Assembly (NCBI RefSeq): GCF_900108915.1
Contig: NZ_FNYH01000004.1
Coordinates: 124,001 to 188,000 of the forward strand
Length of the DNA: 64,000 nucleotides
Reading direction: 5' to 3'
From: Allopseudospirillum japonicum
GTDB taxonomy: Bacteria > Pseudomonadota > Gammaproteobacteria > Pseudomonadales > Halomonadaceae
Shown here piece after piece: positions 26,175 to 29,347 of the stretch. The translations under genes and the position numbers were made by a program. Each line of letters begins with the position of its first letter. Position 1 is the stretch's first letter. The notes beneath the pieces are model-generated. The model did no database searches. It was not told where the DNA came from and saw only the letters and a list, made by a program, of their open reading frames with translations.

Positions 26175-27488
<1,314 letters not shown>

Positions 27489-27512: not shown

Positions 27513-27546
27513 ACACCCCTTGTACGCAATTGCATACAAGGGGTGT
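27513..27546 (+). terminator. Strong hairpin after serS
   Basis: ACACCCCTTGTA and TACAAGGGGTGT pair perfectly over 12 bp, 24 bases past the serS stop. No T-run follows. It separates the ftsK-serS operon from the RNA gene downstream. Confidence 0.6.
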
Positions 27547-27642: not shown

Positions 27643-28190
27643 GTGGTAAACCCAAATATCACCCCCTTGCAGTCTAGGGAGAAGTCTCCTAGTATTAAGT
27701 CATGGGCAGGGACACAAGGACACGGAAAGGCAAAAGCCCTTAAGGAAAAAACCTAGATTAGGATGCGGGTTGAGGGAAGTAAAAAGGCAGGGATCAAAAA
27801 GGAAGAATACTAAGGATAGATAGGATGTCAAGGGTGTAAGGATACCCAAGTAAGGACACGCACCAAGGAGCTATTGGATAATAGAGTAGGGTACACAAGC
27901 GACAGGATGTCACTAAAGTGCAAGGAGTATCACAGGGAGCACAAAGCGAAGGACGCGTTTTTCATCAGGAAGATGTGTTTAGGGAAAGCAAAGGAAGCTC
28001 AAAGGAAGGGAAAGACTTTCAGGATGAAAGTAAGCTTAGGATAAGCATCAAGGAGAGCCAAGGGGTGTTTGCGCTAGGAAGCCAATCAAGGACAAGACAC
28101 CACGTAAAAATAAGGACAGTGTCTAGGATGGATGCTTAGCTGGGGAGAGGCAATGGACGAAATATGGGCGGCAAATATGTCGCCCTTTTT
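27643..28190 (+). ncRNA. Long CsrB/RsmZ-like regulatory RNA that would sequester CsrA
   Basis: A gene-free stretch with about 34 GGA triplets on the + strand and only one on the other. Most are AAGGA, TAGGA or CAGGA, the CsrA/RsmA binding form. Many sit in loops of small perfect hairpins: CTA-AGGA-TAG (27810), CTATT-GGAT-AATAG (27871), GAC-AGGAT-GTC (27901), GCG-AAGGA-CGC (27946), CATC-AGGAA-GATG (27963), ACTTTC-AGGAT-GAAAGT (28015), GCTTA-GGA-TAAGC (28034) and GCT-AGGA-AGC (28073). It ends in a standard terminator. Family knowledge: CsrB-type RNAs titrate the translational repressor CsrA and are switched on by BarA/UvrY (GacS/GacA). At ~550 bases it would be longer than E. coli CsrB (~370). 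The 5' end is a guess. Confidence 0.8.
28166..28190 (+). terminator. Intrinsic terminator of the GGA-rich RNA
   Basis: GGGCGGCA and TGTCGCCC pair (one G-T) around AATA and are followed by TTTTT. The T-run is on the + strand only, so it does not serve the convergent trmA gene and marks a + strand transcript in this gap. Confidence 0.85.
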
Positions 28191-28203: not shown

Positions 28204-29325
28204 TTATCTAGGCTGTAAAAAAACGCCGATTTCAGCATGGTGCGTGTAGGGAAATTGATCAAAAAATGCCCAACGCTTAATGACATGTGTGCGCGTTAAC
28301 GTGTGCAAGTTAGCCGCTAGGGTTTCTGGGTTACAAGAAATATAGAGTAAATTTTTATAGCTAGAAACCTGCTGCAAGGTCGCTTCATCCAAGCCAGCAC
28401 GCGGTGGATCGACCAAAACAGTCGAAAATTGGTAATCTGCTAATTTCAAGGCCTGAATCTTACGGCTTTCTGCTAACTCGCCTGCTAAAGCTTGTGCTAG
28501 GGTTTCACTTGAGATAGGTGCTACTTGTAGATTGGCTATTTGGTTAAGCTCTAAATTATAGGCAGCAGATTTTACAGAGGTTTTGGATATTTCTGTGGCG
28601 AGTATCCGTGGGAAATTCTCTGCCAGTGCAAGACTAAAATTGGCATTACCACAATACAATTCTAGTAAATCCCCAGTTAACCCTTGAGTGACTTCCTGTG
28701 CCCAACTTAACATGTGTTGGCACACGCTGGCATTTGGCTGGGTAAAAGTAGTTTCCACTTGCTGATATTGTAAAGTACGCCCTGCCACAACAAATTTTTC
28801 AATCACATAATCTTGTGTCACCACTTTTTTTTGCTTGCGCGCGCGCCCAATTAAATGTAGTTCAGTAGCTAAAGGCGCTAACTGTTGGCGCAGTGCATGG
28901 GCAGCTTCTTCCCAAGTATCATCGAGCTGGCGGTGATAAATTAGGCTAATCACGGCCTGATCTGTGGTACTAGTTAAAAACTCGACTTGAAATAGTTTAT
29001 GACGCAACTGTGGCCAGTGGCGGATGGCATCTAGTAACGCGGGCATTAAGCGATTAATAAGCTGATTTGCGACAGAGTAAGTATCCATACGGACCCGTGC
29101 GGGTTTACCGCGTGCATCCATGTTGTCTGTATCAAACATCACATAGTACAAGTCTTCATCTTGGTGCCAAAGACGAAATTCTGCACGCATTCTGTAATGG
29201 CTGGGTTCTGACGGAAAAATCTCTAACTCAGGAGGAGAAAAGAGCGCAAAATGCTGTTGGAGTGCTTGTGCTTTGTCAGCAAGCAGTTGTGGATATTGTG
29301 TAGGATCGACTTGGGGTAGACTCAC
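28204..29325 (-). CDS. trmA: tRNA (uracil-5-)-methyltransferase
   Basis: Makes 5-methyluridine at position 54 in the T-loop of tRNAs. About 373 residues. The N-terminal half has FRLWHQDEDLYYVMFD. The SAM-binding half has LLELYCGNANFSLALA, DPPRAGLDE and the nucleophile Cys in ISCNPETLAANL. The frame can start at TTG 29331, but GAGG is better spaced for the GTG at 29325, which I choose. Confidence 0.94.
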   Translation of the reverse strand: MSLPQVDPTQYPQLLADKAQALQQHFALFSPPELEIFPSEPSHYRMRAEFRLWHQDEDLYYVMFDTDNMDARGKPARVRMDTYSVANQLINRLMPALLDAIRHWPQLRHKLFQVEFLTSTTDQAVISLIYHRQLDDTWEEAAHALRQQLAPLATELHLIGRARKQKKVVTQDYVIEKFVVAGRTLQYQQVETTFTQPNASVCQHMLSWAQEVTQGLTGDLLELYCGNANFSLALAENFPRILATEISKTSVKSAAYNLELNQIANLQVAPISSETLAQALAGELAESRKIQALKLADYQFSTVLVDPPRAGLDEATLQQVSSYKNLLYISCNPETLAANLHTLTRTHVIKRWAFFDQFPYTHHAEIGVFLQPR

Positions 29326-29347
29326 AAACAAACCTCGATTAAAAAAC

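Follow-up and report, generated by a model that had tools for sequence, protein, structure and literature searches.

CsrA sponge RNAs of the CsrB/RsmZ type are short intergenic RNAs with many A(N)GGA motifs, without coding capacity and with a Rho-independent terminator of their own, which are preceded by a far-upstream GacA/UvrY palindrome and belong to genomes that also encode CsrA and a BarA/UvrY-type system. GGA counts in the literature are 22 for CsrB, 14 for CsrC, and 25 for Pf1 (PMC11882849); the Pseudoalteromonas Pf RNAs were expressed in laboratory E. coli K-12 and assayed for glycogen with iodine (PMC11882849). At csrB and csrC, the binding site of UvrY is an inverted repeat of 18 nt located far upstream (PMC4682653). 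The window analyzed here, a stretch of 64,000 nucleotides from Allopseudospirillum japonicum, contains a gap between serS and trmA with a GGA motif array, an upstream palindrome, and a terminator, and partner genes are present in the same genome. From this combination of array, palindrome, terminator, and partner genes, we infer that the gap very probably encodes a GacA-controlled CsrA sponge of the CsrB/RsmZ type. The features of the locus, together with a second candidate elsewhere in the genome, are as follows.

Ending at 27488, + strand: serS, the 5' flank of the gap.
27520..27539, no strand assigned: predicted GacA/UvrY-type upstream palindrome (UAS), TTGTACGCAATTGCATACAA, identified by consensus match, position, relatives, and E. 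coli csrB.
27672..28190, + strand: predicted gene for a CsrB/RsmZ-type CsrA-sponge RNA, ~519 nt with 34 GGA, supported by GGA count, shuffles, spacing, relatives, E. coli CsrB, and the lack of a coding match.
27901..27911, + strand: hairpin with GGA in the loop, GACAGGATGTC (short-stem scan, folding).
28015..28031, + strand: hairpin with GGA in the loop, ACTTTCAGGATGAAAGT (short-stem scan, folding).
28034..28046, + strand: hairpin with GGA in the loop, GCTTAGGATAAGC (short-stem scan, folding).
28166..28190, + strand: intrinsic terminator, GGGCGGCAAATATGTCGCCC-TTTTT (hairpin at 28166-28185 plus T tail), with similar ones in relatives.
28204-29331, - strand: trmA, the 3' flank of the gap.
Contig C8 of the same genome, ~46437-46187, - strand: second candidate Csr RNA (L121), with 17 GGA in ~250 nt and its own terminator.

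The GGA array and its upstream palindrome

Between 27640 and 28195, the + strand carries 34 GGA and a single TCC, the strand asymmetry reported in the initial annotation. The motif context is that of A(N)GGA: 22 of the 34 sites are AGGA, and 32 have an A at position -1 or -2. The stretch has a strong A/G bias, and single-base shuffles of it are expected to contain 18.1 GGA; dinucleotide-preserving shuffles yield 18.2 ± 2.8, with a maximum of 28 (n = 2,000). The average across the whole window is only 5.1 GGA per 515 nt, so that the earlier estimate of about eight by chance falls between two baselines, and the densest stretch of the window outside the cluster reaches no more than 13. The sites are also evenly spaced, at a mean of 14.5 nt with a coefficient of variation (CV) of 0.43, compared with 0.76 ± 0.12 for random placement, in which the observed evenness was reached in 0 of 5,000 trials.

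The palindrome TTGTACGCAATTGCATACAA was initially read as a serS terminator, a reading that was dropped after comparison within the GTDB family. It aligns with palindromes located before GGA-rich RNAs of that family, for example, TTGTAAGAGATTGCCTACAA (G027, after rpoS) and TTGTAAGTAATATCCTACAA (G004), as well as with the E. coli sequence TGTGAGAGATCTCTTACA, which precedes csrB. The pattern TTGTANNNNNTNNCNTACA has one match in the 2.74-Mb genome, which is this site, and the reversed control pattern also matches once; therefore, the position of the palindrome weighs more than its rarity. The first two GGAs of the array follow it by 157 and 189 nt; the corresponding interval between UAS and first GGA is 168 to 210 nt in most UAS-linked RNAs of the family and 199 nt in E. 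coli csrB. At 27514-27545, the palindrome is prolonged by the complementary arms ACACCCC and GGGGTGT, with a similar extension in copy 1 of G004. Because of these additional arms, the UAS might double as a 3' hairpin of the serS mRNA.

The location downstream of serS, in the same orientation, and the extended palindrome (ACACCCCTTGTA...TACAAGGGGTGT), which could form an mRNA hairpin, would suit a different reading, in which the GGA-rich stretch is no separate gene but the 3' end of the serS mRNA, serving by read-through as a CsrA-binding or CsrA-titrating tail. We consider this highly improbable: the palindrome matches the GacA/UvrY consensus and is as far from a GGA array as is usual, a situation also seen in relatives in which the RNA follows rpoS, eno, or gyrA, and no such array was found downstream of serS in any of the 29 relatives' loci scanned.

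The terminator at 28166-28190, oriented in the + direction, was confirmed. For the sponge RNA gene, aligning TTGCAGTC to both copies of G004 points to a 5' end at 27672, and the usual UAS distance of ~190 nt would place it at ~27700 instead; depending on the start chosen, the RNA would be ~490 to 519 nt long. That the stretch is merely purine rich, coding or functionless, with the GGAs representing SD-like sites or skewed composition, is barely credible given the GGA excess over composition-preserving shuffles, the even spacing, the UAS, and the terminator: the A/G bias is indeed strong and the + strand of the gap holds two short open reading frames (56 and 73 amino acids), but neither has a Pfam match, and a search of the array stretch for a tandem repeat found none.

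Folding of the RNA and partner genes

The three hairpins named in the initial annotation, GACAGGATGTC, ACTTTCAGGATGAAAGT, and GCTTAGGATAAGC, each fold with GGA in the loop. Two analyses of the enrichment of looped GGAs gave differing results. In a permissive short-stem scan, 13 of the 34 GGAs lie in loops, compared with an expected 16% ± 8%, and the observed share is attained in only 3 of 500 shuffles. Conversely, in local folding of the whole RNA (pairs limited to 60 nt; 60 shuffles per RNA), hairpin loops hold 8 of the 34, a number matched by 18 of the 60 shuffles, and GGA accessibility over the whole fold likewise shows no excess above shuffles. Under the same local folding, E. coli CsrB has 9 of 22 GGAs in hairpin loops (0 of 60 shuffles match), and the RNA of G043, from another family of the order, has 15 of 33, above all 60 shuffles. 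Part of the modeled array therefore resembles linear AAGGA sites set in A-rich surroundings. A more doubtful extension of this idea is an enlarged CsrA sponge that would rely mainly on close-set single-stranded AAGGA rather than on hairpin-loop sites and might accommodate up to ~17 CsrA dimers per RNA.

The genome (2.74 Mb in 30 contigs, 99% complete) was searched by pattern and by family for partner genes and additional RNAs. It contains one csrA (120 bits, above the cut-off), so that the partner on whose presence the earlier reading depended is in place. A gene for a UvrY/GacA-type regulator adjoins uvrC; its best NCBIfam match is UvrY/SirA/GacA, at 240.7 bits, below the equivalog cut-off of 280, and it is 48% identical to a UvrY query. 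Similarly, a BarA-like kinase has BarA as its best match, at 758.9 bits, below the NCBI equivalog cut-off of 890. Thus, csrA coexists with a BarA/UvrY-type system, of which both components are best matches under the respective equivalog cut-offs. The second candidate Csr RNA, on contig C8, has an imperfect palindrome close upstream; two or three Csr-type RNAs per genome are usual (PMC6262261). Two other GGA clusters were rejected, one (C20:346713) because it lies inside a coding frame on the other strand and one (C13:95219) because it is a short repeat.

Taken together, the array, the UAS at the usual distance, the terminator, csrA, UvrY, and the BarA-like kinase strongly support the original proposal of a CsrB/RsmZ-like RNA. 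In the predicted pathway, phosphorylated GacA/UvrY would bind the palindrome at 27520 and activate transcription, yielding an untranslated RNA that would start at ~27672-27700 and end at 28190. CsrA dimers would bind this RNA at ~34 evenly spaced A(N)GGA sites, of which some are in hairpin loops and many fall in single-stranded segments rich in A, and CsrA would be drawn off mRNAs, relieving its control.

Csr RNAs in the family and order

Neighboring genes in the relatives were named from their translated sequences. Within the GTDB family, Csr RNAs are located after rpoS (G027 and G022), between eno and fdxA (G001, G021, and G024), as a tandem pair after gyrA (G004), and elsewhere (G002). Most are 160 to 270 nt long with 9 to 19 GGA, and that of G027 reaches about 340 to 350 nt with 25. 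Terminators of the GGGCGGC...GCCGCCC type, resembling that of the window RNA, end the Csr RNAs of G002, G004, G022, and G027. Tandem pairs of Csr-like RNAs were seen at two loci (L148, G004:C22; L156, G022:C1), and both members of the G004 pair are equipped with a GacA-type palindrome and a terminator of their own.

Three further families of the order contain long RNAs, of ~430 to 510 nt with 26 to 33 GGA: ~510 nt with 33 GGA in G043, ~500 nt in G178, and ~430 nt with 26 GGA in G085. A cluster in G294 (L183, contig C11) with 31 GGA over 667 nt was not counted as a single RNA, since an internal terminator splits it into two tandem Csr-like RNAs.

Among the genomes scanned, the serS-trmA placement is seen in A. 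japonicum alone. A DNA-level search with the window RNA in 58 relatives gave no match outside its own genome, and a trmA-based scan of named genomes yielded 11 loci, all distant (Oceanisphaera, Gilliamella, Shewanella, and others), of which none has a comparable GGA array. An 11-GGA cluster upstream of serS in G002 proved to be where the coding sequence of the preceding gene ends, with a CAAGGACAG repeat.

Because similar RNAs sit elsewhere in relatives, with the same UAS and often the same terminator throughout the family, and long ones occur in three other families, the window RNA is not a separate branch, contrary to the suggestion in the initial annotation. Rather, with counts in relatives and in the literature reaching 33 GGA or fewer, it is at the top of a size continuum, which is not claimed as a record.

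The Rfam models check proposed earlier came out negative. RF00166 (PrrB_RsmZ) scores 22.3 bits on the locus (E = 0.025), under its gathering threshold of 44, and RF00018 (CsrB; gathering threshold, 71 bits) has no match in the genome at an E value of ≤1 and none listed in the locus at ≤10. Since these models place no other genome of the GTDB family over threshold either, the miss appears to be a limitation of the models themselves.

Across this gammaproteobacterial order, Csr sponge RNAs thus span an approximately threefold size range in changing gene neighborhoods, while the GacA palindrome and its distance are kept and the terminator is often kept. The Rfam models miss most of them; therefore, a search by upstream palindrome and GGA density would find many that are unannotated.

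Comparison with known Csr RNAs

The G043 RNA (L044/L159, contig C77) is similar in size to the window RNA but differs in its regular CAGGA hairpins and in a partial RF00018 match (55 bits). A check of 420 nt upstream of it did not reveal the standard UAS; the closest 18-mer there has 4 mismatches from the GacA consensus. The Csr RNA of G027 (L030) shares the UAS (TTGTAAGAGATTGCCTACA), a GGA array (median spacing, 12.5), and the terminator type, and differs in length (~350 nt), in genomic place, and in having no nucleotide-level match to the window RNA.

The weak RF00166 match links the window RNA to Pseudomonas RsmZ over its last 140 nt, including the terminator, and a further likeness is that its family relatives place Csr RNAs beside rpoS or fdxA. 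Unlike RsmZ, however, the window RNA is ~4 times the length of the model (133 positions) and is located between serS and trmA.

E. coli CsrB (RF00018) shares the evenness of the GGA array (CV, 0.43), a UAS ~190 to 199 nt upstream, the terminator, and partners of the csrA/UvrY/BarA type. The difference is one of size and site architecture. The window RNA has more GGA sites than CsrB, as initially claimed (34 versus 22), and is also longer (~490 to 519 versus 369 nt), by 33 to 41% rather than by the ~50% first estimated. Linear AAGGA sites are more numerous in it, and its GGAs are less enriched in hairpin loops. The window RNA is, in short, a large, relocated member of the known Csr sponge RNAs.
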